Origin: Candidatus Eiseniibacteriota bacterium
GTDB lineage: Bacteria > Eisenbacteria > RBG-16-71-46
DNA: 52,307 nucleotides
NCBI GenBank assembly: GCA_016223045.1
Contig: JACRPT010000093.1
Location: 1-52,307, forward strand
Direction of reading: 5' to 3'
Shown here: one piece after another, positions 13,143-35,446 of the stretch
Position numbering within the stretch: the stretch's first letter is position 1
Layout: the number at the start of each line of letters is the position of its first letter
Program-made: the position numbers and the translations under genes
The notes under the pieces: generated by a model
Told to the model about the DNA's origin: nothing
Database searches by the model: none
The model's input: only the letters and a program-made list of their open reading frames with translations

Positions 13143-13254
13143 GTCGGAAAGCACCTCCGGAAGCGGCCGGGGGACGCGCCGGGAACGACCCGGGGCGCGA
13201 GCATAGCGGCCCCGGGGCCCCGGCACCACGGGGACGCCGGCTGCCGGCTGCGGA

Positions 13255-13328: not shown

Positions 13329-15518
13329 CTAGGAGGCGGCTCCCTGCGCCGCGGGCACGCGCCGGGCGCGGCGGACGGGCGCGACGTCGAGGGCGCGGCG
13401 CAGCCCCGCCAGGGCCGTGCCGACCAGGGCCAGCAGCGCGCCGATCCACACCAGGTTCACCAGCGGCTTGGTGCTGACCTCCACCACCGCCAGCCCCGCC
13501 GCCGCGGCGCCCGGCAGTATCAGTCCGACACGCCCGTTGTCGGCGTCGATGCGGCCGACGGCGATGGGACCGAAGCCCGGCACCTCGACGTCGTTCGAGC
13601 GGCTGCCCATGGCGTCGGCCTGCATGCCCGGCGAGACCCGCACGGTCTTCCCCTGCCGCCGCACGTCGATGTCGGCGAACACCTTCAGCTGCTCGTGCGA
13701 CTCCATGCGGAAGCCGGCGAACGTGTACTCCGCGTCGCCCACCGTGGCGGCGCGGCCGCGGGTGAGCCACACCATCTCGGTCCGCGACGGGTCGCCCTGC
13801 CTGACCTCGACCGGCGACAGGTAGAGCTCGCGCCAGCCGCTGATCGCGGGTTTGCGCATCATGCCCTCGCCGCGCGGCATCTCGAACAGCTGGGGCCGGG
13901 CGTCGAAGCTCCAGTCCTTCGACTGCACCAGCACCTTGAGCGTGGTGCGTCCGCGCGCGTCGGCCTCGTTCCCGCGATAGGTGACGGTGTAGCCGAGTGC
14001 CTCACGCGGCGCGCCGGACTCGAGCAGCAGGCGCTCGGTGCGGCCGAGCGAGGCCGACGTCACCATGCCGAGCACCATGACCGCGATGCCGGCGTGCCCG
14101 AGGTAGCCGGAGCCGTAGCTCCAGCCGCGTCGGAACAGGCGGAAGGTCATCCACGCGTTGATGCCCAGCGCGACACCGGTCACCGCCACGAGGATCGCGT
14201 GCCCCGCGTGCCTCATGCCCATGAGCAGCGCCACCGCCATCGCCACGATCCCCAGCACGAAGCCCGGCAGCAGCGCGGTGAGCCAGGTGAGCCCGGCCTG
14301 CTTCGACCAGCGCAACGCAGGCGCGATCGCCATCACCAGCACGATCAGCACGCCGAGCGGGAGGCTCATCGAGTGGTAGAAGCTGGGCCGTACGCCGGCC
14401 GGCTTGCCGGCCAGCGAGGTGAGGATCGGCGCGGTCGTACCGAAGGCCACCATGCCCGCGAACAGCAGCACCGTCACCAGCCCCACCCAGAGCGCGGACT
14501 CGCGCGACAGGCTGGTCCAGCGCGCGTCCGGAGCCGCGATCGCGCGCCAGCGCGACAGCAGCAGCCCGGCCGAGAGCAGCAGGGTCGCCATCATGAAGGT
14601 CATCATCGGGCCGTTCAGGCCCGAGTCCGAGAACGAGTGCACGGAGAAGTCCTGGAGCACGCCGCTGCGGGTGAGGTAGGTGCCACCCAGCACCGTGAGC
14701 CAGCCGAGCAGCGAGAGCAGCAGGTTGGTCCGCACCAGCGCGCCGGTGGTGCGCTGGATCAGCAGCCCGTGGAGCAGCGCGATCGCCACCAGCCACGGCA
14801 CCAGCGAGGCGTTCTCGACCGGGTCCCAGCCCCAGTAGCCGCCCCAGCCCAGCACCTTGTAGGCCCACACGCCGCCGAGCCCGATGCCCAGGCCGAGGGT
14901 GACCACCGCGAACAGCGCCCACGGCCAGACCGCGCGGTTCCACTCGCGGTAGAGGCCCAGCACCAGCGCCGCGGCGGCGAGCGCGAACGGCGCCACCATG
15001 GCGGCGTAGCCCGCGAACAGCACCGGCGGATGCACGACCATCCACGGATCCTCGAGCAGCGGGTTCAGGCCCTGGCCGTCGTCGGGGATCACGGGGCTCA
15101 TGCGGAACGGGCTCTTCACCAGCAGCAGCAACAGCAGGAAGAGCTGCACCACGCTCACGAAGAACATCGCGGGCTTAGAGAGCGGGCCCGGCTGGCGCAG
15201 CAGGGCGAACCCGAACACCGCACCGAGCGCCGCCCAGAGCAGGATGCTGCCCTCCTGCCCCGCCCATGACGCCGCGAAGGTGAGCGCGGGCGAGAGCGCC
15301 CGCGAGCTGTACTGCGCGACGTACGCGAACTCGAAGCGATGGCCGAGGAAGTACGACCAGAGCAACAGCATCGCCCCGATCAGCGCGAGGCCCTGCAGGC
15401 CGAACAGCCAGGTGGCGGTGGCCGGGGCCTTGCGCCCGCGCAGCGGCTGCAGGAACAGGATCGCCGCGGGGATGGCGGCCAGGAAGGCCACCTTGATGAG
15501 GATTTCGCCTGCGTTCAT
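13329..15518 (-). CDS. ccmF: cytochrome c-type biogenesis protein CcmF (heme lyase subunit)
   Basis: A 729-residue polytopic inner-membrane protein. The haem-handling WWD domain is present as WGGYWGWD (225-232) followed by PVENASLVPW, the hallmark of CcmF/CcsA proteins. Another conserved block is SFYHSMSLPLG (about residues 377-387). The C-terminal ~170 residues form the periplasmic domain between the last helices. The ATG at 15518 was chosen because the upstream 33 codons are Arg/Pro-rich and not membrane-like. CcmF attaches haem to CxxCH motifs in system I maturation. Its position divergent from a multiheme cytochrome locus with 58 haem sites fits that role. No other ccm gene is in the window. 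Confidence 0.92.
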   Translation of the reverse strand: MNAGEILIKVAFLAAIPAAILFLQPLRGRKAPATATWLFGLQGLALIGAMLLLWSYFLGHRFEFAYVAQYSSRALSPALTFAASWAGQEGSILLWAALGAVFGFALLRQPGPLSKPAMFFVSVVQLFLLLLLLVKSPFRMSPVIPDDGQGLNPLLEDPWMVVHPPVLFAGYAAMVAPFALAAAALVLGLYREWNRAVWPWALFAVVTLGLGIGLGGVWAYKVLGWGGYWGWDPVENASLVPWLVAIALLHGLLIQRTTGALVRTNLLLSLLGWLTVLGGTYLTRSGVLQDFSVHSFSDSGLNGPMMTFMMATLLLSAGLLLSRWRAIAAPDARWTSLSRESALWVGLVTVLLFAGMVAFGTTAPILTSLAGKPAGVRPSFYHSMSLPLGVLIVLVMAIAPALRWSKQAGLTWLTALLPGFVLGIVAMAVALLMGMRHAGHAILVAVTGVALGINAWMTFRLFRRGWSYGSGYLGHAGIAVMVLGMVTSASLGRTERLLLESGAPREALGYTVTYRGNEADARGRTTLKVLVQSKDWSFDARPQLFEMPRGEGMMRKPAISGWRELYLSPVEVRQGDPSRTEMVWLTRGRAATVGDAEYTFAGFRMESHEQLKVFADIDVRRQGKTVRVSPGMQADAMGSRSNDVEVPGFGPIAVGRIDADNGRVGLILPGAAAAGLAVVEVSTKPLVNLVWIGALLALVGTALAGLRRALDVAPVRRARRVPAAQGAAS

Positions 15519-15964
15519 GGATGCCCTCGGGATGGGGACCGCGCGGCGCCCGGCGTTCGGGGTCGGTGCGTCGGGGCCTGCGCCAGGAGTGCGGCGATGA
15601 CGAGCGCCGGGTTTCACGCAACTTCTATGCCCCCCGGGGGCATCGGGGCGCAGCGCGGCGCGACCCGGGGTCGAGCGCCATGAACCCCAACATCCCGGCC
15701 GCTCGTCGAGCCGGAGGGGCCTGGTAGAGTCGCGGCCCGGGCTGTCATCCCATCATGTCAGCCCTGGCAGCGGCTGGTGAATCCGGGCAGGATCGAGCGG
15801 CGCGAGGCGCCCGGAGCGTGGGACCGGGCGCAAGCAATCCGCCGAGTTACGGGCGCGGCCCGCGCGTCACCTCGACCTCGCCCGCTGGCATGGGCATTGC
15901 GGTGCGTAGTTCTACTGAGAAAGGCGCCCGCGCCGCACGTCCCGGCGGGGCTTCCCAGGCGAGA
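15519..15964. other. 446-bp divergent intergenic region (ccmF / NHL protein)
   Basis: It contains a perfect palindrome at 15627-15643 and a TAGAGT box at 15725. An open frame of about 70 codons (from 15755) leads in-frame into the NHL gene. That frame's Arg/Gly/Pro composition looks non-coding, so I treat it as leader. Confidence 0.5.
15627..15643. promoter_or_regulatory. perfect palindrome, possible operator
   Basis: ATGCCCCC-C-GGGGGCAT has 8-bp arms around one central base. It lies 109 nt upstream of ccmF and on the upstream side of the NHL/cytochrome locus, a natural place for a shared regulator to bind. Confidence 0.4.
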
Positions 15965-16963
15965 ATGACCCTCACGAGCGACAACCCTCCGCGCAGCTCC
16001 GACCCCGCCCGCCTGGCGCCGGTCGTCCTGGCCGCGCTGGCTCTCCTGACCGGGTCCACCCGCGCGGCCGAGACCGGGACTCAGGACAGGCCTCCGGCGG
16101 CGCGACCGCTGCTCGTCGTTTCTGGCCTTGACGCCTCGGTTCCGTTCTCCTATCCGCGGTCCATCGCCATTGATTTCCTGCATAAGGAAATCTACGTGGC
16201 CAACACCGCCGGGCACCGGATCCAGATCTTCGACTTCAGCGGAAACGTCCGCGGCCAGTACGTGCACCGCGTGCGGACTCCCGAGGGCGACTCGGTGGAC
16301 GGATTGCCGCGCGGACTGGCCCTGGACGGCTCGGGCCACCTGCTGGTGGTGGACCAGCTGGCGAGCTACGTGGACGTTCTGGACTATCGGGGATACTCCG
16401 TAGGTCGCCTTGAATTGCCTTTACAACGTGGGAACATCAATGACGGTCCGGGTGCTGTCACCGTCACTCGCGCGGGTCTGATCCTGGTCGCGACGCGCGG
16501 AGACAGCGGTCGTGTGCACCAGTTCGCACCGGATTTCACAAGGCTGGGCGCCTGGGGCGTGCCGGGGAGCGAGCCGGGCCGGCTCACCGGAGTGATGGGC
16601 ATGGCGGTCACGCCTGACGGAAGCGTCGTGATCGTGTCGCCGACGACGGAGTTCGCGGTGCAGGTGTTCAGCGAGAACGGCCGCTTCATCCAGGGTTTCG
16701 GTCGCCATGAGATCGGCGAAGGGAACTTCTCGTTCCCCTCGGGCGTGGCGGTCACGAACGACGGGAGGATCTGGGTGACGGACGAGCTCCGTCAGGTGGT
16801 GCAGGTGTTCGATGCCTCGGGGAAGTACGTGGGCGCAGTGGGAAGCGGTGGCAGGGCTCCCGGGGAGTTCCTATATCCAAGCGCGCTGGCGAGTGACGGC
16901 GACAGCCTGCTGGCGGTCGCGGAAAGAGTAGGGAATCGGTTCCAGCTGTTCAAGGTGCAGTGA
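15965..16963 (+). CDS. exported NHL-repeat protein
   Basis: The 332-residue protein has an N-terminal membrane/signal segment (LAPVVLAALALLTG, ending STRAAE). About five NHL repeats follow, for example YPRSIAID, LPRGLALDGSGHLLVVD, GVMGMAVTPDGSVVIV and FPSGVAVTNDGRIWVTDE. Such repeats form a six-bladed propeller used for protein or ligand binding. NHL propellers are often encoded next to multiheme cytochromes, where their role is unclear. The ATG at 15965 was chosen because the 70 upstream in-frame codons are not protein-like; a start at 15755 cannot be fully excluded. The next cytochrome gene starts 132 nt after its stop. Confidence 0.75.
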   Translation: MTLTSDNPPRSSDPARLAPVVLAALALLTGSTRAAETGTQDRPPAARPLLVVSGLDASVPFSYPRSIAIDFLHKEIYVANTAGHRIQIFDFSGNVRGQYVHRVRTPEGDSVDGLPRGLALDGSGHLLVVDQLASYVDVLDYRGYSVGRLELPLQRGNINDGPGAVTVTRAGLILVATRGDSGRVHQFAPDFTRLGAWGVPGSEPGRLTGVMGMAVTPDGSVVIVSPTTEFAVQVFSENGRFIQGFGRHEIGEGNFSFPSGVAVTNDGRIWVTDELRQVVQVFDASGKYVGAVGSGGRAPGEFLYPSALASDGDSLLAVAERVGNRFQLFKVQ

Positions 16964-17095
16964 GCGTCACGCACCCGGCGCCTGTAGCGGTGGGTTACAT
17001 CCGGACTGGAAAGGAGGTCGCACTCTCGGCTCGCAGCAGTTCCTGACTTCGGACCCGCTGTTTCGTTCATCTTCGTCCCAGGAGTGACCAACACC

Positions 17096-18145
17096 ATGAA
17101 ACGCCTGATCCTGATCCTCACGGCCGTGTGCCTGGGGGGACTGGTTTCGGTGGCCCTGGCGGGCGACTACCACTCGGGATCCACGCTGGTCTGCAGTGAC
17201 TGCCATACGGCGCACTTCAGCATCCAGCCCGGCCATGACGCCGGCTTCCATCCCGAGCTGCTCGGCCCCAGCGGACCGTACGACAACCTGCTCCTCAACG
17301 AGGTCAACGACCTGTGCCTCTCGTGCCACAACGAGAACTCGATCGCGCCTGACGTGTTCGGTGCCAACCACGGCAAGTACAGCGGCACCGTGCGGCGGGC
17401 CGGCGGTCTCAATGCGGCTGCGGGGCACCTGGCGAACGACCCGGGCTACACGGAAGTCACAGGCCACACGCTGTGGTCGTCCGCCACGCCTCCGGGCAAC
17501 GGCGGCGCCTACGTTCCTCCGGCGGACGGGCTGGAGTGCACCCAGTGCCACTCGCAGCACGGGCAGAAGGCCTTCCAGTACCGCAACCTGAAGCAGGCCA
17601 CTTCGGCTGACACGCTGGACTACGCGGTCACGACGAACGACCTGAACAAGGCCGTGTTCGAGCGGGCTCCCCGTTCGTACTCGGACGCCGACGTGGACTA
17701 CAACGAGCCGCATCAGTGGAGCGACTACGCCAAGTTCTGCGGCCTGTGCCACACCAACTTCCACGGAGTGGGTGGTGACGCCAACATGGGCAGCGCCTCC
17801 GGCGGCTACGTCAACGGCGGCATCCCCTGGAAGCGCCACCCGGTGGCCGACGTCAACATCGGCGCGACGGGCTCGTCCAAGACCTACATCTCCAGCCTCA
17901 CCCAGTTCAACAGCCATGTGAACCGGGTCAAGGTGATGGACTCGCAGGGCCTCTGGAACGGCACCACCGCCGACAACACGGTGACGCCGTCGTGCTTCAG
18001 CTGTCACAGGTCGCACGGCGACAAGAACCCGTTCGGGCTGATCTACCTGCTCGGCGACGGGGTGAACCCGGTCACCGAAGAGGGTGACGGCGCGCAGTAC
18101 AAGAACCTGTGCCGCCAGTGCCACGTCCAGGGCGCTGACAGCTAG
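17096..18145 (+). CDS. hexaheme c-type cytochrome (periplasmic/exported)
   Basis: The 349-residue protein has a clear Sec signal peptide (MKRLILILTAVCLGGLVSVALA). Six CxxCH haem-attachment motifs follow in order: CSDCH, CLSCH, CTQCH, CGLCH, CFSCH, CRQCH. Haem density is low (about one per 54 residues) with long Ser/Thr/Asn-rich segments, as in outer-surface or outer-membrane-associated cytochromes. The ATG at 17096 follows AGGAG by 11 nt; an in-frame GTG at 17084 overlaps the ribosome site and is less likely. It lies between the NHL gene and the 10-heme gene, the latter separated by a duplicated promoter/hairpin segment. Confidence 0.88.
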   Translation: MKRLILILTAVCLGGLVSVALAGDYHSGSTLVCSDCHTAHFSIQPGHDAGFHPELLGPSGPYDNLLLNEVNDLCLSCHNENSIAPDVFGANHGKYSGTVRRAGGLNAAAGHLANDPGYTEVTGHTLWSSATPPGNGGAYVPPADGLECTQCHSQHGQKAFQYRNLKQATSADTLDYAVTTNDLNKAVFERAPRSYSDADVDYNEPHQWSDYAKFCGLCHTNFHGVGGDANMGSASGGYVNGGIPWKRHPVADVNIGATGSSKTYISSLTQFNSHVNRVKVMDSQGLWNGTTADNTVTPSCFSCHRSHGDKNPFGLIYLLGDGVNPVTEEGDGAQYKNLCRQCHVQGADS

Positions 18146-18172
18146 ACGTCGCACGGAAGCAACCGGCCGCGG

Positions 18173-18178
18173 TAGATT
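18173..18178 (+). promoter_or_regulatory. putative -10 box TAGATT (copy 1)
   Basis: GCGGTAGATTGG, 28 nt after the hexaheme gene stop. A transcript starting a few nt downstream would meet the copy 1 hairpin within about 25 nt. No clear -35. Confidence 0.35.
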
Positions 18179-18206
18179 GGACGAGCAGACGACGGCCGGC
18201 TCGGCG

Positions 18207-18238
18207 GGTGCGGGCCGCGAGGTCCGCACCCTCCCTTT
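18207..18238 (+). terminator. hairpin plus T-run in copy 1 of the duplication
   Basis: GGTGCGGGCC (18207-18216), loop GCGA, GGTCCGCACC (18221-18230), then CTCCCTTTT. It could end the hexaheme transcript or attenuate transcription from the box just upstream. Confidence 0.6.
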
Positions 18239-18243
18239 TGCGG

Positions 18244-18249
18244 TAGATT
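18244..18249 (+). promoter_or_regulatory. putative -10 box TAGATT (copy 2)
   Basis: Second copy of the same box, 82 nt before the 10-heme cytochrome start. A hairpin (18278-18301) without a T-run lies in the resulting leader, next to the ribosome binding site. Confidence 0.4.
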
Positions 18250-18331
18250 GGGCGTGCGAACGACGGCCGGCTCGGCGGGTGCGGGCCACCAGGTCCGCAC
18301 CCTCCCTCATGTCAGGCGACGCGGAGGAACG

Positions 18332-19789
18332 ATGCGCGTGATGGCACCAGGGCGTGAGCCGGAGAACGGACGCGGTCCGCGCCGCTCGCGCGCGCCCGCC
18401 TCGCACCTGAGGACGGCGGGAGCGCTGCTCTCGGTCCTTCCGGTGCTGGCGCTGGCCGCGCCGGGCGCGACTCGACGCGACCCGCTGGAGATCGCGAGAA
18501 TGCTGGCCACCGGCGCCCACGCCGGCGACTGCTCTACCTGCCACAGCCAGCACGGCGAGGGCCAGCCCATGGCCTACGAGCACGCGCTGATCGGCCCCGA
18601 CGACAACACGCTCTGCGACCGCTGCCATACCACGCCGTGGTCGGGCGGCAGCTATCCGGGCACCTGGACCTACACGGGCTCGGCTCACGGGTCGAGCCGC
18701 ACCGCGATCTGGCCCGGCCCCGACCCGCCGGCCCGCACCGAGCCCGACGCGCCGGGCAAGTGCCTCAACTGCCACGACCCGCATGGTTGGAAGGACGGGA
18801 GCGGCGAGATCCCGCGCCTGATGGTGGCGCGCGAGGAGGCACTGTGCCTGGCCTGCCACGACGGCAGCCCGGCGACGACCAACGTGCGCTCCGACCTGCA
18901 GAAGGCCTATCGCCACCCGACCACGGACTACAGCGGCCGCCATGCCGGGCCTGCCGAGTCCCTGCCCTCCGACTTCGCCGTATCGCCGGTCAACCGGCGG
19001 CACGCGGAGTGCGAGGATTGCCACAATCCGCACGTGGCGCGTCACGACCCCGGGGCAGGGCCGATGCCGCCCGACGCCTCGAAGCGACTGCTCGGCGCGA
19101 GCCGCGTCCGCGTGCTGAACGGCCCGGCCGGCGGCGCGCCGACCTACACCTTCCTCGCCGGCGCCGACACGCTCACCGCGCCGGTCACCGAGTACCAGCT
19201 CTGCTTCAAGTGCCACTCCTCGTGGACCGTCCAGCCCGGCGGGCAGACCGACCTCGCGCGCGTGCTGAACCCGGCCAATCCCTCCTATCACCCGGTCGAG
19301 GCTTTGGGGAAGAACCTCAACATCAACTCGCTTGCGTTCGTCACCGGCTGGAGCGCGACGTCCTACACGAAATGCGGCGACTGCCACGGCAGCGACCTCG
19401 GGGCCGCCGGACCGCACGGCTCGAGCTACCGCTACATCCTGAGGTCCCCCTACACCGCGTCCTCGTCGTTCCGGACCATGGCCCCGAACGAGGCGTGCTT
19501 CGGCTGCCACTCCTACGACGTCTACGCGAACCGCAACTCCCCGGAGTCGGTGCGCAGCGCCTCGCGCTTCAACCGGCCGCGCGCCGACAAGGGCCATGCG
19601 GAGCACGTGGACCAGAAGCAGGTCCCCTGCTACGCCTGCCACACCACGCACGGCTCGAGCACGCTCAAACACCTGATCGTCACCGGGCGGAGCCCGGGCA
19701 TCCAGAGCTACACCGAGACCCCGACCGGCGGCACGTGCAGCCCGACTTGCCACGGCAGCAAGTCCTACACCGTGAACTATGCGCGATGA
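18332..19789 (+). CDS. decaheme c-type cytochrome (one CX3CH site)
   Basis: The 485-residue protein has an N-terminal signal segment (AGALLSVLPVLALAA). Nine CxxCH motifs are present: CSTCH, CDRCH, CLNCH, CLACH, CEDCH, CFKCH, CGDCH, CFGCH, CYACH. A final CSPTCH follows, a CX3CH site that some haem lyases accept. The ATG at 18332 follows GGAGGAAC. Its last 11 nt overlap the start of the outer-membrane barrel gene, so the two proteins are translationally linked. In porin-cytochrome conduits a periplasmic multiheme cytochrome is inserted into a beta-barrel. This pairing fits that model, though which face this cytochrome occupies is inference. Confidence 0.88.
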   Translation: MRVMAPGREPENGRGPRRSRAPASHLRTAGALLSVLPVLALAAPGATRRDPLEIARMLATGAHAGDCSTCHSQHGEGQPMAYEHALIGPDDNTLCDRCHTTPWSGGSYPGTWTYTGSAHGSSRTAIWPGPDPPARTEPDAPGKCLNCHDPHGWKDGSGEIPRLMVAREEALCLACHDGSPATTNVRSDLQKAYRHPTTDYSGRHAGPAESLPSDFAVSPVNRRHAECEDCHNPHVARHDPGAGPMPPDASKRLLGASRVRVLNGPAGGAPTYTFLAGADTLTAPVTEYQLCFKCHSSWTVQPGGQTDLARVLNPANPSYHPVEALGKNLNINSLAFVTGWSATSYTKCGDCHGSDLGAAGPHGSSYRYILRSPYTASSSFRTMAPNEACFGCHSYDVYANRNSPESVRSASRFNRPRADKGHAEHVDQKQVPCYACHTTHGSSTLKHLIVTGRSPGIQSYTETPTGGTCSPTCHGSKSYTVNYAR

Positions 19790-21503
19790 GCGGGCCGGCA
19801 GGGGTGCGGCGGGGGCGGCCGCGGTGGCGCTCGGGCTCGCCTGCCTGGCGGGCGCGGCGCCGGCCCACGCCCAGGGGCTCAAGGGCTTCCTCCAGGTCCA
19901 GTTCCAGCGCGTCGAGCAGAACCAGACCGTCATGGTGGACGGAGTGCCACGGCAGGTGAAGCTGACGCGCGAGTCCTGGGTCCAGACCTACGAGCTCGAC
20001 CACGTCGCCCAGGTGCGACAGAACCTGAGCCTGGTCTCGCAGCTGCGCTGGATCGAGTCCACGCGCCCCGGCAGCGCGGACCGCAGCCGCACGCCCTTCG
20101 GCTCGATGCGGCTCGGGCATCCGCTGTTCGGCCTGAGCGGCTCCTACCGGCCGATCACCACGACCTCGTCCATTTCCGGCGGGGCGCCCGGATTCCTCGA
20201 GCCCGGGACGCCGGCCCCTTCGAGGGCAGTCACGACCCGCAACCAGGAGATGCAGTTCGCCGGCTATCTGGCGATGCCGAAGCTGCCGCGCCTGGACGCC
20301 TCGTGGACGCGCCGGCACCGCAATGGCGACGCGCTCTTCAAGGAGGAGACCGGCATCACGCGCGTGGCGAACCTCAACTACGACGCCGGCCCCGCCTACG
20401 TGCGCGGGGGCTACAACGACCTGGCGCGCGACGGCGGCGGATTCTCGGCGCGCACCATCCTCCAGCGCAACGTCGAGGGGGGCACGGGGGTCCGCCTGAG
20501 CCCAGCCGCCGCAGTCTCGCTGGCGCTGTCCTACGACTTCTCGCAGAGCCAGCGCGGCGACGCCAGCGGCCGCAACACCCGCTCGCGCTCCCAGACCGCC
20601 TCGGTCTCGGGCGGCGTGCGCCAGTCGCCGAAGTCGGACTGGAGCCTGTCCTACGCGTGGCGCCGCGCCGAGAGCCCCGGGACGACCCGGGCCAACCTCG
20701 ACGGCCACGAGGGCTCGCTCTCGTACAACCTGCAGGCCACGCGCCGGGTGCGCTTCACGACCGGCACCGGGCTGCGGACCGAGAGCCTCCGCGACCGGAG
20801 GCAGCTGGTGCGCTACGCCAATGCCGTGCTCTCGGCCGACGGCGACATCGTGCACAACGTGCGGGCCAGCACCAGCCTCGCCCACGTCACGAACTGGCTC
20901 CCCTCCCACTCACCCTACTCGGTCGAGAGCTGGCATTCCGGCGCCCGCGCGCGGCTGCGCGAGGGCCTCGAGCTCACCGACGACCTGGTGATCACCGCCA
21001 ACGGCGACACCGCGGCGCTCGACACCCGGGTGGTCACGCAGAACTCGCTGGGGCTGCAGGCCACGCCACTGCGCAGCCTGACGGTCGCCCTCTACGACCG
21101 GCGCTACCACGCCGGCCCGAGCCTGCTCGGGACCTCGGCCGACTCGCGCACGCTCGCGCTGGACGTGCGCTGGCGGGTGGTGCCGTCTCTCGAGCTGACC
21201 ACGAACGCCTCCCGGACCGGGCTGCTGCCCGCCAACGATCCCCGCACCTCGACCGTCGCCCTGGGCCTGCGCTGGAACCCCTCGGCGCGGTTCCAGTTCG
21301 CCGGCAACTACACCCGCACCGGGGGTTCTTCGCGGCTCGCGGATGCCGCCCTGATCAGCGGGCGCGAGTTCCTCACCGGCCGCGTGTTGGCCGGACTCAG
21401 CCGAACGGTTACGCTGAGCGCTGGAACCAGCGTGGCCGACCCCGGACGGGCCTCACGATCGAGCCAGTTGGACGCGCTCCTGACCAAGAGCTTCGGGAGG
21501 TAG
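19779..21503 (+). CDS. outer-membrane beta-barrel protein, porin-like partner of the cytochromes
   Basis: The 574-residue protein has a signal peptide (AAAVALGLACLAGAAPAHA). The remainder alternates short amphipathic strands and polar loops, for example LSYDFSQSQRG, GLRTESLRD and LALDVRWRV, consistent with a barrel of about 20 or more strands. It ends LDALLTKSFGR, with an aromatic close to the C-terminus. It has no CxxCH motif. The start overlaps the 10-heme gene by 11 nt, and the lipoprotein gene follows after 6 nt. By position and architecture it is a candidate sheath protein for transmembrane electron transfer, analogous to MtrB/PioB-type porins, although sequence similarity to those cannot be judged here. 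Confidence 0.7.
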   Translation: MRDERAGRGAAGAAAVALGLACLAGAAPAHAQGLKGFLQVQFQRVEQNQTVMVDGVPRQVKLTRESWVQTYELDHVAQVRQNLSLVSQLRWIESTRPGSADRSRTPFGSMRLGHPLFGLSGSYRPITTTSSISGGAPGFLEPGTPAPSRAVTTRNQEMQFAGYLAMPKLPRLDASWTRRHRNGDALFKEETGITRVANLNYDAGPAYVRGGYNDLARDGGGFSARTILQRNVEGGTGVRLSPAAAVSLALSYDFSQSQRGDASGRNTRSRSQTASVSGGVRQSPKSDWSLSYAWRRAESPGTTRANLDGHEGSLSYNLQATRRVRFTTGTGLRTESLRDRRQLVRYANAVLSADGDIVHNVRASTSLAHVTNWLPSHSPYSVESWHSGARARLREGLELTDDLVITANGDTAALDTRVVTQNSLGLQATPLRSLTVALYDRRYHAGPSLLGTSADSRTLALDVRWRVVPSLELTTNASRTGLLPANDPRTSTVALGLRWNPSARFQFAGNYTRTGGSSRLADAALISGREFLTGRVLAGLSRTVTLSAGTSVADPGRASRSSQLDALLTKSFGR

Positions 21504-21509
21504 GACCTG

Positions 21510-22097
21510 ATGAGGCTTCCGCGGATCGCGCGCCTGATCGCCATCGGCTTCGCCACGCTCGGGCTGTCCGGCTGCGCCGCGCCCGCACGCTTCTATGTGA
21601 ACCCCCAGGCCGACATGTCCTACTACAAGAAGATCGCGGTCCTCCCCTTCTCGAATCTCACGCAGCAGGGCTTCGCCGGCGAGCGCGTGACGCGCGCCTT
21701 CGTGACGGAGCTGGTCATCACCGACCGCTTCCAGGTCGTGGAACCCGCGGAGTTCCGCGCGGTGCTCGCCCGCGTGGGCGTCGAGTCGAACATCGAGAGC
21801 GGCATCGACCCCGACAAGCTCAAGGAAGCCGCCGCGCAGGTGGGCGCGACCGGCGTGGTGCGGGGCGCGGTCAGCGAGTACCAGATGCAGCGCGCCGGCC
21901 AGGAGGAGGTCCCGGTGGTGAGCTTCGACGTCGAGCTGCTCGACGCCGCCACGGGGAACGTGGTGTGGCGGGTCTCCCTCAGCCGCAAGGGCCACGGTCG
22001 CCTGCCGCTCGTGGGCGGTGGGGCGCGCACCTTCGGCCGCGTGACCCAGGAAGCCTGCGAGCAGGCGGTCGCCGTGCTGCGCGGCAAGGCGTTCTGA
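21510..22097 (+). CDS. CsgG/LpoB-like outer-membrane lipoprotein
   Basis: The 195-residue protein has a lipoprotein signal peptide with lipobox LSGC (mature Cys near residue 22). The core KKIAVLPFSNLTQQGFAGERVTRAFVTEL, a later LLDAATGNVVWR and the helix ending EQAVAVLRG form the CsgG/LpoB-type fold. CsgG proper makes an outer-membrane export pore for curli; LpoB-type relatives activate peptidoglycan synthesis. At about 195 residues this lacks the long transmembrane hairpins of CsgG, so a periplasmic scaffold role is more likely than a pore. It is encoded 6 nt after the barrel and 1 nt before a second related lipoprotein. Confidence 0.65.
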   Translation: MRLPRIARLIAIGFATLGLSGCAAPARFYVNPQADMSYYKKIAVLPFSNLTQQGFAGERVTRAFVTELVITDRFQVVEPAEFRAVLARVGVESNIESGIDPDKLKEAAAQVGATGVVRGAVSEYQMQRAGQEEVPVVSFDVELLDAATGNVVWRVSLSRKGHGRLPLVGGGARTFGRVTQEACEQAVAVLRGKAF

Positions 22098-22098
22098 C

Positions 22099-22734
22099 GT
22101 GCGCGCTCCCGGCCGCTTCGTGCGCCGCGTCCTGCGCGGCCCGGGCTGTCTCGCGCTCGCCGCCGCGCTGCTCGCCGGCTGCGCCTCCGCGCCGCCACGC
22201 GCGCGCGGCGTCCGCGCGGTGACCGGTCTCCCGGTGCGCGTGGCGCTGCTCCCGCTCGAGAACCTCACCGGCAACGCGGACGCCGGGAATCTGATGACCC
22301 GCATCCTGTTCGTGGAGCTGGTGCGCACGCACGCCTGCGAGGTCGTGGAGGCGGGCATCGTGGACACCGCGGTGGTCGAGCTGCGCATCCGCAACGGCGG
22401 CTCGCTCTCGGCCGCCGAGCTGCGGGGACTGGGTTCCATGCTCGACGTGCGTTACGTGCTGGCCGGGACCGTGCTCGAGAGCGGCAGCGCGAGGACGCCG
22501 GACGGCGACGTGCCGACGCTGGGCGTGGCACTCAAGCTGCTCGATGTCGGGAGCGGGCGCGTGGTGTGGGCCCAGATGCGGTTCCGCACCGGCGATGACC
22601 GCGAGACCGTCTTCGGCTGGGGCCGGGAGAAGGACCCGCAGCGGCTCGCCGCGGCGCTCGCCGCCGACGTGCTCAAGGACTTCAGCATCCCCGGCGCGGG
22701 CGCGCCGCACGATTCTACCGGAGGCAGGGAATGA
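22099..22734 (+). CDS. second CsgG/LpoB-like lipoprotein
   Basis: The 211-residue protein starts from GTG at 22099, 1 nt after the previous stop. Lipobox LLAGC is followed by ASAPPRARG. The core VRVALLPLENLTGNADAGN and LKLLDVGSGRVVWAQMRF parallel the preceding lipoprotein, suggesting an old tandem duplication with strong divergence. It overlaps the next gene by 4 nt (ATGA). The pair sits between the barrel and the 42-heme cytochrome, so a role in anchoring or assembling surface electron carriers is plausible but unproven. Confidence 0.65.
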   Translation: MRAPGRFVRRVLRGPGCLALAAALLAGCASAPPRARGVRAVTGLPVRVALLPLENLTGNADAGNLMTRILFVELVRTHACEVVEAGIVDTAVVELRIRNGGSLSAAELRGLGSMLDVRYVLAGTVLESGSARTPDGDVPTLGVALKLLDVGSGRVVWAQMRFRTGDDRETVFGWGREKDPQRLAAALAADVLKDFSIPGAGAPHDSTGGRE

Positions 22735-23198
22735 CACGCTGGCGGCAGGTGGTGCTCGTGGCGGGACTCCTCGGGGCGGCGGGAGCGGCGGTGGCCGGCC
22801 CGGTGTCGTCGGTGCGGCTCGTCAAGGTCGAGGCGGTCACCTTCGAGATCCGCCACCGCATCTTCCCCGGCTTCCGCGAGCAGGACCAGGTGAAGCTCAA
22901 GGAGGACTTCCAGGTCGGGGACACGCCGTACTCCGCCAGGGTCGTGGAGTTCGTCCCCGACTTCGCGATGGACCTCAAGTCCCGCAAGGTCCTCTCGCGC
23001 TCCAACGAGCCGAAGAACCCGGCCTTCCGCATCATCGTGCGCGAGAAGGGCGTGCCGCAGGACACCACGTGGGCGTTCCTGAACATGCCGCCGCACTTCG
23101 CGCGCAAGTCCATGCTCGCCTTCCAGGTCCTGCGCATCGACTTCGCCGACCGGCCGCCGATCGTCAGCGGCGACTCCACGAAGGCGGTCCAGCCGTGA
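22731..23198 (+). CDS. small exported protein of the cytochrome operon, unknown function
   Basis: The 155-residue protein has a signal peptide (VVLVAGLLGAAGAAVAG). A compact soluble domain follows with VKVEAVTFEIRHRIFPGF, VVEFVPDFAMDLKSRKVLSRS, EPKNPAFRI and WAFLNMPPHFARK. No cysteine or haem motif is present. I recall similar PDFAxDxKSRKVxSRS proteins beside multiheme cytochromes in other bacteria, but cannot name a characterised family. The start ATGA overlaps the lipoprotein stop and its stop overlaps the GTG of the giant cytochrome. It is therefore an integral operon member, perhaps a periplasmic chaperone or docking factor. Confidence 0.6.
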   Translation: MTRWRQVVLVAGLLGAAGAAVAGPVSSVRLVKVEAVTFEIRHRIFPGFREQDQVKLKEDFQVGDTPYSARVVEFVPDFAMDLKSRKVLSRSNEPKNPAFRIIVREKGVPQDTTWAFLNMPPHFARKSMLAFQVLRIDFADRPPIVSGDSTKAVQP

Positions 23199-26100
23199 GC
23201 CGCGGCGCGCGCGGGTGGCCGCGGCGCGCGCGGGCCGCGCTGCTGGCCGCGCTGGCCGGCGCCGTGATGCTCGCCGCCGGTCACCGGATCACGGCGGCGC
23301 GCGCGGGCGCCGGCCCGGCGCGCACCTGCTACGACTGCCACAAGGAGTCGAAGAAGGTATTTCAGAAGAAGTTCGTGCACGCCCCGGTCGCGAAGGCCGA
23401 CTGCGCGGCGTGCCACATGAGCCACGGGTTCACCCAGGCGCTGGTGCTCAAGAAGGCGCTCCCCGGGCTGTGCTACGACTGCCACAAGGACCTCGAGAAG
23501 GCGCCGGCGCCCGCGCACCAGCACGCCGCGTTCGCGCAGGGCCAGTGCCTGGGCTGCCACGAGCCGCACGCCACCGACCTGACGCACCTGGTGCGCGAGG
23601 GCGGCCCCGCGGCCTCGTGCTTCAAGTGCCACGCCGCGGCGAAGCAGGAGAGCGAGGCCGCGCACGTTCACCCGCCGTTCAGGAGCGGGGACTGCTACGC
23701 CTGCCACGCTGCGCACGGCGCGAGCGAGCCGGGACTGCTCAAGGCGAAGGGCGAGGCGCTGTGCGCCACCTGCCACGCCGCGGCGCAGATCGAGGCGAAA
23801 CACGCGAGCGTGGTGCGCGGCGGGCTCCAGTGCCTGGACTGCCACGCCGCGCACGCCGCTGCGGACGCGAAGCTGACGCGGGCCGGCGCGCATCCGCCGG
23901 TGTCCGAGGGCCAGTGCGAGTCGTGCCACGAGATGGCGGACGGCAAGCCCACCGGCAAGCTGGTGGCGCAGGTGCCGGAGCTGTGCCAGACCTGCCATGC
24001 GGACACGCAGGGGCTCGACGCGAAGGCGCACCCGCACCCGCCCGCGGCGGGCGGCGACTGCCTGTCCTGCCACGACCCGCACCGCGGCGGCTCGGGCGCG
24101 CTGCTCAAGGACAAGCCCATGGCGCTGTGCGGCGCCTGCCACGAGGACCTGGCGGAGGCGGCGAAGCAGCCGGTCGTTCACAAGGCTTTCGCGGACGGGA
24201 GCTGCGCGTCGTGCCACGAACCCCACGGCTCCGATCGCGCGAAGCTCAGGAAGACCGAAGACGGGGAGATGTGCCTCTCCTGCCATCAGGACCTCGGCAA
24301 GCGCCTGGGCCTTCCCGGCACACATCCTCCCGCGGCGAAGAAGGACTGCCTGCGCTGCCACGTCCCGCACGCGGGAACGCAGGAGCATCTGCTGCGGCGC
24401 GAGGAGCGCGGGCTGTGCGTGACCTGCCACTCGGGCCTCGGCCGGAAGCTCGCGGGCAAGGAAGCCCACCCGCCGTTCCGCACCGGGAGCTGCACCGCCT
24501 GCCACGACCCGCACCAGTCGGCCCAGGCGAAGCTCACGAAGGCGGCGGCGCCCGCGCTGTGCTTCCAGTGCCACCCGCAGGTGCAGCGCGCCGCCGGCCA
24601 GGCGCACCCGCACCCGCCGGCGCAGGAAGGCCAGTGCCTCACCTGCCACGGGCCCCACGGCGGCGAGACCGCCGGACTGCTCGCTTCGAAGCCCCAGGAG
24701 CTGTGCGTCTCCTGCCATGCGGAGATCGGCAGGAAGATCGCCTCGTCCGCAGCCCACACCGCCGCCGCCGCCGGCAGGTGCATGAGCTGCCACGAGCCGC
24801 ACGGCTCGAAGAAGGAGAAGCTGCTGCGGGGCGAGGGCAACATGCTGTGCGCCACCTGCCACGCGGGCATCGGCAAGGAGGGCGACAAGGTCCATTCGCC
24901 GGTCGTGTCCGGCGACTGCCTCGCCTGCCATGACCCGCACGGCGGCACGGTCGCCCCGGCGCTGGTCAAGGCCGTGCCGGCGTTGTGCGCCGACTGCCAC
25001 GACCTCACCGGCGACGAGCTGAAGGCGAAGCACGGCGGCGCCGACCTGGCGGGCGCGAAGTGCCTCTCCTGCCACACGCCGCACGCCTCGAAGGAGGCGG
25101 GACTGATGGGGGCGAGCGAGCACCCGCCCTTCGCCGAGAAGCAGTGCGACGAGTGCCACGCAGCCGGCCAGCCGCCGAATGCGAAGAGCTTCACCCGCCC
25201 GGTGACGCAGTTGTGCGCGACCTGCCACGACGTGGCCGTGCCGAAGAGCGCGGGCGCCACGGTCCACCCGCCGGCGAAGGCCGGGCAGTGCCTGACCTGC
25301 CACACGCCGCACGCTTCCGACCGCAGCGGGCTGCTCGCGCGTCCCACCGCGGAGCTGTGCGCCACCTGCCACGCGAACGTGATCCGGGACGCGAAGCTCC
25401 CGCACGGCCACCCGCCCGCGGCGAAAGGCCAGTGTGCGACCTGCCACGAGCCGCACCTGAGCGGTCGCGCCGGGCTGCTCAAGGCGAAGCCGACCGAGCT
25501 GTGCTTCTCCTGCCACAAGGACCTGGCGGCGCGCATCGCCGAAGGCACGCCGCACGCCCCGGTCGCGATGAACATGTGCTTCACCTGCCACGCCCCTCAC
25601 GGCTCGCCGAACCCGGGGATGGTGAAGCGCGAGGGCGCGACGCTGTGCGGGGCCTGCCATGCGCCGAAGAAGCCGGCGCTGGTGGCGAAGCACCCGGGCA
25701 TGGACCTGGCGACGGCGAACTGCCTCTCCTGCCACGACCCGCATGCCCAGCAGAAGGGCCAGCGCGGGCTCATCCGCTTTGCGAAGCACATGCCGTTCGT
25801 GCGCGGCGAGTGCACCTCGTGCCACACCCGGCGCGGCGCGGCGACCACGGTGGCCAAGGGCGGCGCGCTGTGCTTCAAGTGCCACGAGGACTTCCCCGGG
25901 AAGCTCTCGAAGTCCCACATCCATCCACCGCTCAAGGGCGAGAATGAGTGCCTGACCTGCCATGCGCCGCACGCCGCGGCCGCAGTGCCGCTGCTGCGCG
26001 CGCCGAAGGACCGGTTGTGCTTCCAGTGCCACGACCACCGGCTGGTCGAGGGCTCGGTGAAGCACCAGGCGCTCGAGCAGGGCTGCCTGACCTGCCACGA

Positions 26101-26365
26101 TCCGCACTCCAGCGACGCGCCGCGAATGCTCAAGAAGCCGGTGATGGAGCTGTGCCAGACCTGCCACGCCGACATGAAGAAGCACTACCACCCGTACGCG
26201 GGGAAGACGGACCCGCGCACCGGCGGGCCGCTGGTCTGCACCAGCTGCCACCTGCCGCACTCGGGCGAGATCGAGGGCCTGCTCATCCGCGAGCCCAAGC
26301 GCGAGCTGTGCATCCAGTGTCACGACCCGTTCGCGGCGCCGCGCCCGAAGTCGAAGTCGAAGTAG
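23195..26365 (+). CDS. giant 42-heme c-type cytochrome built of paired CxxCH modules
   Basis: The 1,056-residue protein starts from GTG at 23195 (4-nt overlap with the previous stop). An Arg-rich N-terminus leads into a hydrophobic signal segment (AALLAALAGAVMLAAG). From Cys45 to residue ~1043 there are 42 CxxCH motifs by my count, one per ~24 residues. They are arranged as about 21 two-haem units of the doubled-CXXCH kind: an LCxxCH half, an HxHPP spacer and a GxCLxCHxPHG half. Extra histidines (HPP, PH) supply distal ligands. No other domain, membrane helix or anchor is visible; the end is basic (PKSKSK). Such density makes a continuous haem chain likely, i.e. a long electron wire. Location (periplasm or outside) is not shown by sequence. 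It is the last gene of the operon and is followed by a terminator. Confidence 0.93.
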   Translation: MSRGARGWPRRARAALLAALAGAVMLAAGHRITAARAGAGPARTCYDCHKESKKVFQKKFVHAPVAKADCAACHMSHGFTQALVLKKALPGLCYDCHKDLEKAPAPAHQHAAFAQGQCLGCHEPHATDLTHLVREGGPAASCFKCHAAAKQESEAAHVHPPFRSGDCYACHAAHGASEPGLLKAKGEALCATCHAAAQIEAKHASVVRGGLQCLDCHAAHAAADAKLTRAGAHPPVSEGQCESCHEMADGKPTGKLVAQVPELCQTCHADTQGLDAKAHPHPPAAGGDCLSCHDPHRGGSGALLKDKPMALCGACHEDLAEAAKQPVVHKAFADGSCASCHEPHGSDRAKLRKTEDGEMCLSCHQDLGKRLGLPGTHPPAAKKDCLRCHVPHAGTQEHLLRREERGLCVTCHSGLGRKLAGKEAHPPFRTGSCTACHDPHQSAQAKLTKAAAPALCFQCHPQVQRAAGQAHPHPPAQEGQCLTCHGPHGGETAGLLASKPQELCVSCHAEIGRKIASSAAHTAAAAGRCMSCHEPHGSKKEKLLRGEGNMLCATCHAGIGKEGDKVHSPVVSGDCLACHDPHGGTVAPALVKAVPALCADCHDLTGDELKAKHGGADLAGAKCLSCHTPHASKEAGLMGASEHPPFAEKQCDECHAAGQPPNAKSFTRPVTQLCATCHDVAVPKSAGATVHPPAKAGQCLTCHTPHASDRSGLLARPTAELCATCHANVIRDAKLPHGHPPAAKGQCATCHEPHLSGRAGLLKAKPTELCFSCHKDLAARIAEGTPHAPVAMNMCFTCHAPHGSPNPGMVKREGATLCGACHAPKKPALVAKHPGMDLATANCLSCHDPHAQQKGQRGLIRFAKHMPFVRGECTSCHTRRGAATTVAKGGALCFKCHEDFPGKLSKSHIHPPLKGENECLTCHAPHAAAAVPLLRAPKDRLCFQCHDHRLVEGSVKHQALEQGCLTCHDPHSSDAPRMLKKPVMELCQTCHADMKKHYHPYAGKTDPRTGGPLVCTSCHLPHSGEIEGLLIREPKRELCIQCHDPFAAPRPKSKSK

Positions 26366-26386
26366 GCGCGCGCCGCTGCAGGTGAA

Positions 26387-26416
26387 GGAGGGGCGTCCCG
26401 CGCGGGGCGCCCCTCC
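26387..26416 (+). terminator. terminator of the cytochrome operon
   Basis: GGAGGGGCGTCCC / GGGGCGCCCCTCC form a 13-bp stem (one G-T pair) with a GCGC loop, 21 nt past the stop of the 42-heme gene. Confidence 0.7.
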
Positions 26417-26613
26417 GTGCCGGCGCTCACCTGCGTGGGCGCGCCGCGGCGCGGCTGCGCGGCCGCAGGATGCGCCCGGAGTCATGGAAGCGCACGATCG
26501 AGAACCGCGCAAGGAACGCAACGGCCCCTGGTGGTCGCGGGCCGCGTGTTCCGCGGGCTTCCGCGCGCCGGGCTGTTGCATTCCCGGTACAGCGCTCGAC
26601 GGAGGAGACGACC

Positions 26614-27264
26614 ATGTCGGACCAGTCCACGCCGGTCGGAGCCGAACACTTCCGCTACATCGCCGCGCACACCGCCGGTGACGACCTGTTCCTGGCGGAC
26701 CTCAAGCGCGCCGCCACCGCCGGCGGCATCCCCGGCATCTGGGTGGCGCCGGAGCAGGCGAGCCTCATGCAGATCCTGCTGCGGCTCTGCCGCGCGCGCG
26801 AGGTCGTCGAGGTCGGGACGCTCGCCGGCTACTCCGCGATCGCGATGGCGCGCGCGCTGCCCGAGGGCGGCCGGGTGCGCACCATCGAGCTCGATCCGCA
26901 GCGTGCCGACTTCGCCGAACGCTGGATCGCACGCTCCGACGTGGCCGGCCGCATCGAGGTGATGCGCGGGCCCGCCGCGGAGGTGCTGCCGCGCCTCGAC
27001 GCCGATTCGGCCGACGCCGCGTTCCTCGACGCCGACAAGGCCGGCTACCCGCTCTACCTCGCGGAATGCCTGCGCATCGTACGGCGCGGCGGGCTCGTCC
27101 TGGTGGACAACGCGTTCGCATTCGGCCAGCTCTTCGACGAGCACCCCACCGACCGCGAGGTCGCACCGATGCGCGAGTTCAACGAGCGGATGCCGCGCGA
27201 GACCGCGCTCCAGAGCGTCATCGTCCCGCTCGGCGACGGGTTGTGGGTGGGCGTGAAGCGCTGA
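26614..27264 (+). CDS. class I SAM-dependent O-methyltransferase (CCoAOMT-like)
   Basis: The 216-residue cytosolic enzyme has the SAM-binding motif VVEVGTLAGYSAIAMARAL (~64-82), followed by an acidic ribose-binding strand (TIELD). The metal/catalytic region contains FLDADKAGYP, and a conserved VLVDNAFAFG follows. This matches the cation-dependent catechol/caffeoyl-CoA O-methyltransferase family. The ATG at 26614 is preceded by GGAGGAG. The methyl acceptor is unknown. The selenoprotein gene is convergent 24 nt downstream. Confidence 0.88.
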   Translation: MSDQSTPVGAEHFRYIAAHTAGDDLFLADLKRAATAGGIPGIWVAPEQASLMQILLRLCRAREVVEVGTLAGYSAIAMARALPEGGRVRTIELDPQRADFAERWIARSDVAGRIEVMRGPAAEVLPRLDADSADAAFLDADKAGYPLYLAECLRIVRRGGLVLVDNAFAFGQLFDEHPTDREVAPMREFNERMPRETALQSVIVPLGDGLWVGVKR

Positions 27265-27288
27265 CGGACGGGCGGCACACCGCGCCGC

Positions 27289-27522
27289 TCAGACCGCGAG
27301 TTTCGCCTTCACGCGCTCGACCACGACTCGGCCGGACGGGAGCCAGCCCGCCCAGTTGGTGCGGGCGACCTCCTCGCCGTCCACGAGCACGGCGGCCCGA
27401 CCGTAGGGACCGCCCACCAGCTCGACCTCGAGACCCAGCTCCCTCCTGATCCGCGCCGCCACCCGGGCGGCCTGGATGCCGGAGAGTCAGTACCGGCAGT
27501 AGCTCACCGTGACCCGTGACAT
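27289..27522 (-). CDS. Rdx-family (SelW/SelT-like) selenoprotein with in-frame UGA
   Basis: Reading the minus strand from ATG 27522 gives a 77-residue protein if the TGA at 27489-27487 (codon 12) is decoded as selenocysteine. The N-terminus MSRVTVSYCRY-U-LSG contains a CxxU redox motif right after the first beta strand, where Rdx proteins have CxxC/CxxU. The following helix (IQAARVAARIRREL), the strand VELVGG, the strand RAAVLVDGEEVAR and the C-terminal helix fit the thioredoxin-like Rdx fold and usual length. AGGAGG lies at ideal distance before the ATG, and codon bias stays normal across the UGA. A short stem (CGGC/GCCG) follows the UGA, but I cannot confirm a SECIS element. Alternative: a nonsense mutation or sequencing error of a Cys codon. 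Confidence 0.75.
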
Positions 27523-27568
27523 CGCGCACCTCCTCTCCCGCGCGGCCCGGCCGGCGCCCCGGCGGCCG

Positions 27569-27757
27569 TCACGGCTCGAAGACCTCCTCGATGCGTTTCC
27601 CGAACAGCTTCGCCACCCTGAACGCGAGCGGCAGGCTCGGATCGTACTTCTCGGTCTCGATCGCGTTCACGGTCTGGCGCGAAACCCTGAGTTTCTCCGC
27701 CAGGTCGCCCTGCGACCAGCCTTTCGCCGACCGCAGCTCGCGCAGCCGGTTCTTCAT
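27569..27757 (-). CDS. small HTH (Cro/CI-type, YozG-like) transcriptional regulator
   Basis: A 62-residue single-domain protein. Its helix-turn-helix reads LRELRSAKGWSQGDLAEKLRVSRQTVNAIETEKYDPSLPLAFRVA with the typical WSQxxLA...VSRQTVxxIE pattern, and it ends LFGKRIEEVFEP as in YozG-like regulators. Its ATG overlaps the stop of the membrane-protein gene upstream (ATGA), and both are read from one promoter. Such pairs are usually autoregulated; a dyad overlaps the promoter of this operon. Confidence 0.88.
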   Translation of the reverse strand: MKNRLRELRSAKGWSQGDLAEKLRVSRQTVNAIETEKYDPSLPLAFRVAKLFGKRIEEVFEP

Positions 27758-28146
27758 CGGTAGCGCCGCCCCACCACGACGAGTCCCACCAGCCACAGGA
27801 GCGTCATCAGCGGCCACACCCACACCGCCCAGCGCACCGCCGGCAGCCCCGCCCTCTCGAGGAATCCCCACGCCGTGACCGCGATGCCCGTGCCGGCGAA
27901 CGCCAGCACGATCGCCTCGAAGTGGATGCGCTGGCCGAGCTCGTCGAGGCGGCGGATGGACTGCAGCGTCCGCACGATGACGAAGCCGAACGCCGCGCCC
28001 TGGATGACCGCGAGGGCGATGCGCAACGGCGCGCCCCGCGCGAGGTCGCGACCCCAGTACGCGCAGGCCATGACGACGAGCGCGGCGGCGACGGCCTCGA
28101 CGATGAGTCTCCAGTTGAAGCAACCGAACAGCTTCTCTCGCATCAT
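27754..28146 (-). CDS. four-helix membrane protein paired with the HTH regulator
   Basis: A 130-residue protein with four hydrophobic helices (about residues 13-31, 42-58, 76-95 and 103-122) and short polar loops. It resembles the small DUF membrane proteins regularly encoded just upstream of YozG-type regulators; the specific family is not certain. It is the first gene of the operon and overlaps the regulator by 4 nt. A role in sensing a membrane signal or modulating the regulator is inference from pairing only. Confidence 0.7.
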   Translation of the reverse strand: MMREKLFGCFNWRLIVEAVAAALVVMACAYWGRDLARGAPLRIALAVIQGAAFGFVIVRTLQSIRRLDELGQRIHFEAIVLAFAGTGIAVTAWGFLERAGLPAVRWAVWVWPLMTLLWLVGLVVVGRRYR

Positions 28147-34248: not shown

Positions 34249-34345
34249 TAACGATGAAGACGGGTTGCCCCCTGACCGCGGTAAGGTCCGCGGCGGACCA
34301 CAGGGTCATCCATGACGGATGCCCCAGGAAAGCGAGGGCAACCCA

Positions 34346-35446
34346 ATGGCATTGTGCGTCGGTCTCGACGGTCACAGCAAGCGGTGTGTGTACCTGATCC
34401 AGGACGAGCACGGCAACGGTGCGGGCGAGGGGAGCGTGCCCACGACGATCGAGGGGCTTCAGTTGATGCGGGATCGCCACCAGCTCCCCCCGGGGACACG
34501 CGTCGCGCTCGAGAGCGGCACCATGGCGTTCTTCGTGGCCCGTCGGTTGGTGCGGCTCGGACTCGATCCGGTGGTCGTGGATGCCCACGAGGTCCGCCAG
34601 AAGGCCCTGCGCCCGAACCAGAAGAGCGATCGGCGCGACGCCCTGGAACTGTGTGAGGGGCTGCGCCGCGGAATCTACCGGTCGGTCGTCCACGTGCCGC
34701 CGGAACCCATCGAGCGCCTGCGCGAGACGCTGGGGCGCCGGCGCCACTTCGTGGGCTTGAAGACCATGCAGGTGAATGCGGTCAAGCGTCTGCTGCGAGC
34801 GGCGGGCCTGCAGGGGCTGGGGCGCAGCCTGGGCACCGATGCGGCGTGGGAGAAGCTGCTGCGGGCGGTGGCGATCGATCCGTCCCTGCACGCCTTCTGC
34901 ACGACGCATCGCGCGGTGTGGTGGTGTGCTCACGAGCAGGTCGCCACGCTCGAGGCATCGCTTCGCGCTCAGGGAGAACCGCTCCAGCGTGACCTCGACC
35001 GGCTGCAGACCGTGCCGGGCGTGGGCCCGATCGTGGCGCTGACGGTGCTAGCGGTGTTCTCGGACGTGCGGCGCTTCCCGACGGCGAAGCACGCCGCCAG
35101 CTACGCCGGCCTGGTCGCCTCGACGTACGACTCCGGCGAGCGCGTCCAGCACGGGCGGATCACGCGCCGAGGGTCGAACGAGCTGCGGTCCATGTTGTGC
35201 GAAGCCGCTCACCACGCCGGGCGGCCGAGCCATCCCCTCAACCCGTACTTCTCCAGTCTGTGCGTGCGGCGCGGCTACAAGATGGCGGTGGTCGCGGTGG
35301 CCCACCGGCTGTGCCGGATCCTGTACGCCATGCTGCGCCACGGCACCGACTTCGACCTGAGCAAGCTGGCGATCGAGCAGGGCCACTTCGAACGCACGAC
35401 GGTTCGTCACTATCGGCGCAAGAGCAACGCGGCAGTGTCAGCCTGA
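34346..35446 (+). CDS. IS110 family transposase (DEDD recombinase)
   Basis: The 366-residue transposase has an N-terminal RuvC-like domain with the DEDD acidic residues placed as Asp8 (VGLDGHSK), Glu56 (VALESG), Asp95 and Asp98 (KSDRRDA). The C-terminal Tnp20 domain includes LQTVPGVGPIVALTVLA, YAGLV, SGERVQHGRITRRGSNELRSMLCEAA. Both halves are full-length, so the element looks intact and may be mobile. The ATG at 34346 was chosen next to a GCGAGGG ribosome site; an ATG nine codons upstream is possible. Confidence 0.92.
   Translation: MALCVGLDGHSKRCVYLIQDEHGNGAGEGSVPTTIEGLQLMRDRHQLPPGTRVALESGTMAFFVARRLVRLGLDPVVVDAHEVRQKALRPNQKSDRRDALELCEGLRRGIYRSVVHVPPEPIERLRETLGRRRHFVGLKTMQVNAVKRLLRAAGLQGLGRSLGTDAAWEKLLRAVAIDPSLHAFCTTHRAVWWCAHEQVATLEASLRAQGEPLQRDLDRLQTVPGVGPIVALTVLAVFSDVRRFPTAKHAASYAGLVASTYDSGERVQHGRITRRGSNELRSMLCEAAHHAGRPSHPLNPYFSSLCVRRGYKMAVVAVAHRLCRILYAMLRHGTDFDLSKLAIEQGHFERTTVRHYRRKSNAAVSA

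Follow-up and report, generated by a model that had tools for sequence, protein, structure and literature searches.

A 42-haem cytochrome encoded beside an OmcS-type hexahaem gene in an Eisenbacteria genome: a candidate fused counterpart of OscI and OscJ

What could a single exported polypeptide with 42 haem-binding motifs be doing in a bacterial cell, and does its place among other cytochrome genes point to an answer? The question was raised by one gene in a stretch of 52,307 nucleotides (hereafter the window) from a draft genome (3.88 Mb, 97.6% complete) of a Candidatus Eiseniibacteriota bacterium.

23195..26365, + strand: c-type cytochrome of 1056 aa with 42 CxxCH motifs; fused counterpart of a 26-haem plus 16-haem gene pair (OscI/OscJ-like)

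The open reading frame started with GTG and overlapped the stop of the preceding gene by 4 bp. The original prediction described 42 CxxCH motifs in one exported chain with no other domain, and this description was borne out. All of the 84 cysteines lay within the motifs, and the Pfam search returned no domains besides multihaem cytochrome families, Paired_CXXCH_1 (PF09699) matching over 20 stretches with 711 bits (cut-off, 20.6). Shuffling the residues of the protein (n = 5000) produced 0.58 motifs on average and never more than 6, against 42 in the real sequence. The protein carried a hydrophobic stretch at its N-terminus and was classed as exported; a pattern search found no lipobox, and no membrane anchor was seen. 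An antisense open frame of 1288 codons (22715-26581, - strand) spanned the entire gene, and probably arises from the codon usage of the conserved + frame at high G+C (72%).

The motifs were spaced by 25 and 23 residues by turns, and two types of haem alternated accordingly: type A (LCxxCH), whose distal His mostly lay 13 residues past the motif His, and type B (CxxCHxxH). The proposed array of about 21 near-regular two-haem modules is not a clean one: the A/B register was broken three times (haems 8/9, 25/26 and 34/35) and the breaks were kept in the relatives, which makes 21 an approximate figure. The middle break falls within the following region.

24959..25215, + strand: haems 24-27, with the register break 25/26 and the gene boundary (haems 26|27) of split relatives, as located by the fused/split alignment and the spacings

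A higher-order internal repeat was considered and rejected, the breaks yielding segments of 8, 17, 9 and 8 haems with no clean ancestral unit. As for growth by module duplication, the chain does contain internal repeats, but they stem from old duplications, and their number is now fixed.

This number was the same in all of the full-length fused proteins, 25 out of 25 (that of the window and 24 relatives from at least two phyla) having exactly 42 motifs. A search for homologues with variable module counts had been proposed; the check gave 24 of 24 full-length relatives with 42, the sole variation found being a split into 26 + 16 haems, and a variable module number was ruled out by this constancy. 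All 42 motif columns of the alignment were common to the 24 fused relatives and six joined split pairs, and a further 43 histidines were at least 80% conserved across 27 sequences, about one distal ligand per haem. Since the identity of the relatives to the window protein was 36-59% while the 42 motifs and these histidines were conserved, the haem ligands have been retained as the remainder drifted.

Strong matches were present in 14 of the 47 genomes of the same phylum (incomplete copies and the window's own counted), and homologues also occurred in Nitrospirota (L005, L006) and in 30 of the 133 genomes of another group (split forms counted). A plasmid search gave nothing beyond one partial match of 28%. 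Outside the ligands, conservation was highest at haem 2 and was also high at haems 41, 34, 8 and 1; the two ends were thus among the best-conserved parts, a pattern that fits a putative docking of the protein at both of them. Insertions of about 12-20 residues, with the haem number unchanged, were observed at haems 21|22 (L042-L051) and at haems 27|28 (L008-L010), and are possibly partner-binding loops. Additionally, a second giant cytochrome was detected in the same genome (L003; G000:C83:1-2207), weakly similar to the 42-haem protein and with at least 24 CxxCH motifs in a frame cut by the contig end.

In six loci (L040, L056, L057, L060, L061, L062), the chain was instead encoded by a 26-haem gene and an adjoining 16-haem gene, the product of each having its own N-terminal signal-like stretch. 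Once joined, these pairs aligned with the fused form in 42 of 42 haems, the first gene ending after haem 26 and the second starting with haem 27. In another locus (L064), what looked like an 18 + 23 split was discarded, an assembly gap (a run of unknown residues) being located at that point. The split forms made up one supported group on an unrooted tree, and the window gene may be either a fused or a never-split form. The total of 42 in the fused chain and in the 26 + 16 pairs suggests selection on total length, and also suggests that the two split proteins work as a single unit, placed end to end.

The genes that precede the 42-haem gene, and the assembly gene that adjoins them, were assigned as follows.

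13329..15617, - strand: CcmF-type cytochrome c assembly protein (Pfam Cytochrom_C_asm and CcmF_C above cut-off), adjoining the operon
15755..16963, + strand: NHL-repeat beta-propeller protein (Pfam NHL), conserved in the cluster
17084..18145, + strand: OmcS-family hexahaem cytochrome and candidate nanowire subunit (OmcS profile match; 12 axial His conserved)
18248..19789, + strand: 9-haem cytochrome, 513 aa as listed (9 CxxCH, Pfam), conserved in the cluster; judged by start codons, the ATG at 18332 is the likelier start
19779..21503, + strand: outer-membrane beta-barrel of 574 aa with an MtrB-like fold (AlphaFold2 model, PDB fold match)
21510..22097, + strand: first LpoB/CsgG-like lipoprotein (Pfam LpoB and CsgG above cut-off; lipobox LSGC), conserved in the cluster
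22099..22734, + strand: second LpoB-like lipoprotein (weak LpoB model match; lipobox LAGC), conserved in the cluster
22731..23198, + strand: exported protein of 155 aa, with 4-bp overlaps on both sides; its tblastn matches adjoin the 42-haem gene in many loci, and the Pfam search gave no family for it

All of the genes from the NHL gene to the 42-haem gene, the last of the operon, ran in the same direction, with overlaps or gaps of no more than 6 bp from the 9-haem gene onward. The set recurred, in whole or in part, around the fused gene in relatives from Eisenbacteria, Nitrospirota and a further group. Multihaem genes often cluster, and the 42-haem protein might in principle be a stand-alone cytochrome that serves a different respiration and is close to EET genes without a link to them; however, the recurrence of the same partners in these three groups and window genes that overlap or nearly touch make this explanation very improbable.

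In three of the split neighbourhoods (L056, L061, L062) an OmcS-like hexahaem protein (FHDxGVAxCxGCHTMHNS) was accompanied by propeller proteins, a lipoprotein, a second LpoB-like protein and an OscH-like prolyl isomerase of the SurA/rotamase type; where the window has the barrel gene, these loci encoded a large protein of 700-740 aa. The prolyl isomerase, present in the split loci, was not found by Pfam among the window genes at 15755-27875. A gene for a protein with a molybdopterin-binding oxidoreductase domain was located at 12534-13229 (- strand) and, together with the CcmF-type gene, lay back to back with the cytochrome operon. An IS110-type transposase gene (34319-35446, + strand) was observed about 8 kb downstream of the operon.

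The family of the hexahaem protein (17084-18145) matched OmcS (6ef8/6nef) over its whole length in a profile search (E 3.4e-45), and the profile of the window clade alone returned OmcS as its sole match (E 5.4e-11). When the hexahaem and 9-haem proteins were searched against the PDB as single sequences, no useful match was obtained; OmcS emerged by profile search. The 12 axial His of OmcS were all conserved in the family, and six invariant non-motif His aligned to OmcS (6ef8), including the His of CHTMH, which in OmcS ligates a haem of the next subunit. By analogy, the hexahaem protein would polymerise as an OmcS-like filament.

The 42-haem protein itself resembled a different type of cytochrome. 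Its AlphaFold2 model (27 sequences, without haems) reached a pLDDT of 82.3 and a pTM of 0.54, and the sole significant PDB fold match of this model was MtrA (Foldseek E 1.6e-5, TM 0.59 by MtrA length, rmsd 5.5). Sequence searches, too, ranked MtrA first (3.6e-20; profile, 9.8e-31); the chain matched is 6r2q_A, whose sequence record is named otherwise, yet is part of the Mtr complex. The model of the barrel (19779..21503) had a pLDDT of 83.5 and 28 predicted strands, and its best PDB fold match was MtrB (6r2q_B, E 3.7e-11), although the TM of 0.49 is modest and large barrels look alike. Because the 42-haem chain, with 24 residues per haem, is as spare as MtrA, one of its ends could fit into the barrel. 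With about 57 residues per haem, the 9-haem protein has more bulk and would be more like a surface cytochrome.

These matches bear on where the 42-haem protein works. Its length, its haem density and the lack of a visible membrane anchor would suit an extracellular wire or a filament subunit, the latter having been part of the original prediction. That part went unsupported: the operon has a separate gene for a protein of filament type, the OmcS-like hexahaem neighbour, and the PDB sequence and fold searches revealed no resemblance of the 42-haem protein to solved filament subunits past weak repeat matches, its best match being MtrA. Furthermore, the Geobacter proteins OscI (GSU2495) and OscJ (GSU2494) are both listed as periplasmic (PMC13194489). 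An extracellular 42-haem protein is thus quite unlikely. The claim of a one-polypeptide wire, on the other hand, remained plausible in view of the conserved candidate distal His (roughly one for each haem), the MtrA-like fold and the electron-transfer operon, and continuity of the wire along the 42 haems would be expected by analogy with MtrA.

A possible source of electrons was indicated by the sister genomes, in which two further genes followed the 42-haem gene, one for a CbcL-like protein that combines a 13-haem cytochrome with a membrane domain of the b561 type, the other for a NapC-type 18-haem protein. The genome of the window also encodes CbcL-like b561/13-haem and NapC-type 18-haem proteins, on contig C19 (58-59% identity). 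Considering the whole of these comparisons, we regard the 42-haem gene, with moderate confidence, as the fused or never-split OscI-OscJ of an osc-type OmcS-nanowire operon, whose product would be a periplasmic wire from inner-membrane quinol cytochromes to the barrel and the nanowire. The protein would hold 42 bis-His haems in one compact MtrA-like periplasmic chain. Electrons from quinol would pass through the CbcL/NapC-type inner-membrane cytochromes to one end of this chain, run along it and exit at the other end via the MtrB-like barrel and the 9-haem cytochrome, from which they would reach the extracellular OmcS-like hexahaem filament. For the 42-haem protein, we infer haem loading, a periplasmic location, this direction of flow and the docking of the ends.

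More tentatively, the protein could be an extended MtrA, one end plugging the MtrB-like barrel and the other reaching the inner-membrane cytochromes, so that one polypeptide would wire the whole periplasm to the OmcS-like nanowire and the number 42 would act as a ruler whose length is dictated by envelope width; we hold this version to be possible but doubtful. The spacing in an MtrA-like arrangement is about 8 Å per haem. If straight, a chain of 42 haems would extend over at least about 30 nm, which equals or exceeds the usual periplasmic width and counts against the reading as a periplasmic wire.

The main rival is an accessory role, which the Geobacter literature emphasises: instead of conducting the current, the protein would help to load the OmcS-like subunit with haem, to fold it by redox chemistry or to export it, or would store electrons in the periplasm. 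Such a role would agree with the prolyl isomerase and lipoproteins of the split loci and with a passage of PMC12977616, citing Shen et al. 2025, which links OmcS maturation and secretion to an eight-gene osc block of Geobacter; this block includes GSU2495 and GSU2494 and follows an OmcS-like hexahaem gene. Nevertheless, an accessory factor would have no need to keep its haems at exactly 42 in both fused and split forms, and the inner-membrane quinol cytochromes encoded next to the 42-haem gene in the sister genomes also speak against it; we consider it rather unlikely.

A literature search for a 42-haem cytochrome, covering work other than the osc paper of Shen et al. 2025, found nothing relevant. 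Three features seem to be new: the fusion of OscI and OscJ in one chain, a haem total that is strictly 42 whether the chain is fused or split, and the occurrence of an OmcS-like gene together with one for an MtrB-like barrel. Mtr-type barrels and OmcS-type nanowires, usually treated apart, are joined here in one operon of uncultured bacteria, and the 42-haem protein bears on how electrons cross the periplasm to cytochrome nanowires and on the job of OscI and OscJ.

Compared with known systems, the closest parallel was the osc operon of G. sulfurreducens. GSU2495 carries 26 haem motifs (PMC2996986) and has GSU2494, a second multihaem cytochrome, as its neighbour, and in the split relatives a 26-haem protein, spanning haems 1-26 of the fused form, is encoded next to a second multihaem gene, 26 + 16 in that order. 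An OmcS-like hexahaem gene upstream, in the same operon as the 42-haem gene in the window, is a further likeness, as are the lipoprotein and prolyl-isomerase genes of the split loci. In contrast, all 42 haems of the window protein are in a single polypeptide, its operon also encodes a 9-haem cytochrome and an MtrB-like barrel, and no prolyl isomerase was found in the cluster. Haem count, gene order and the types of partner provide a strong lead to a relationship between the window protein and OscI/OscJ.

The hexahaem protein shares with OmcS its six haems, a full-length match, the axial His and the N-terminal HSG..CxxCHTxH, but has about 350 residues against the 407 of mature OmcS, and the window clade has diverged. 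Two OmcS-like or related 6-7-haem genes were observed near the 42-haem gene in L068 (529-1584 and 8024-9046) and L070 (412-1587 and 1725-2957), and two such genes in L073 (1210-2412 and 2509-3654); these pairs resemble omcS/omcT/oscC of Geobacter.

Giant cytochromes with 34-37 haems are known from Geobacter genomes, and the 12- and 27-haem cytochromes of this genus consist of four or nine fused c7 modules of three haems (PMC2996986). They too string compact CxxCH modules into a long single polypeptide, but the window protein is built on A/B pairs of two haems, and its register breaks at three conserved points. Finally, MtrA (a PioA/DmsE-type decahaem protein) shares the compact CxxCH chain, and the window operon includes an MtrB-like barrel. 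MtrA has 10 haems in about 300-350 aa, however, against 42 in 1056 aa, and where MtrCAB has MtrC, the window operon, which has no MtrC homologue, encodes an OmcS-like protein instead.
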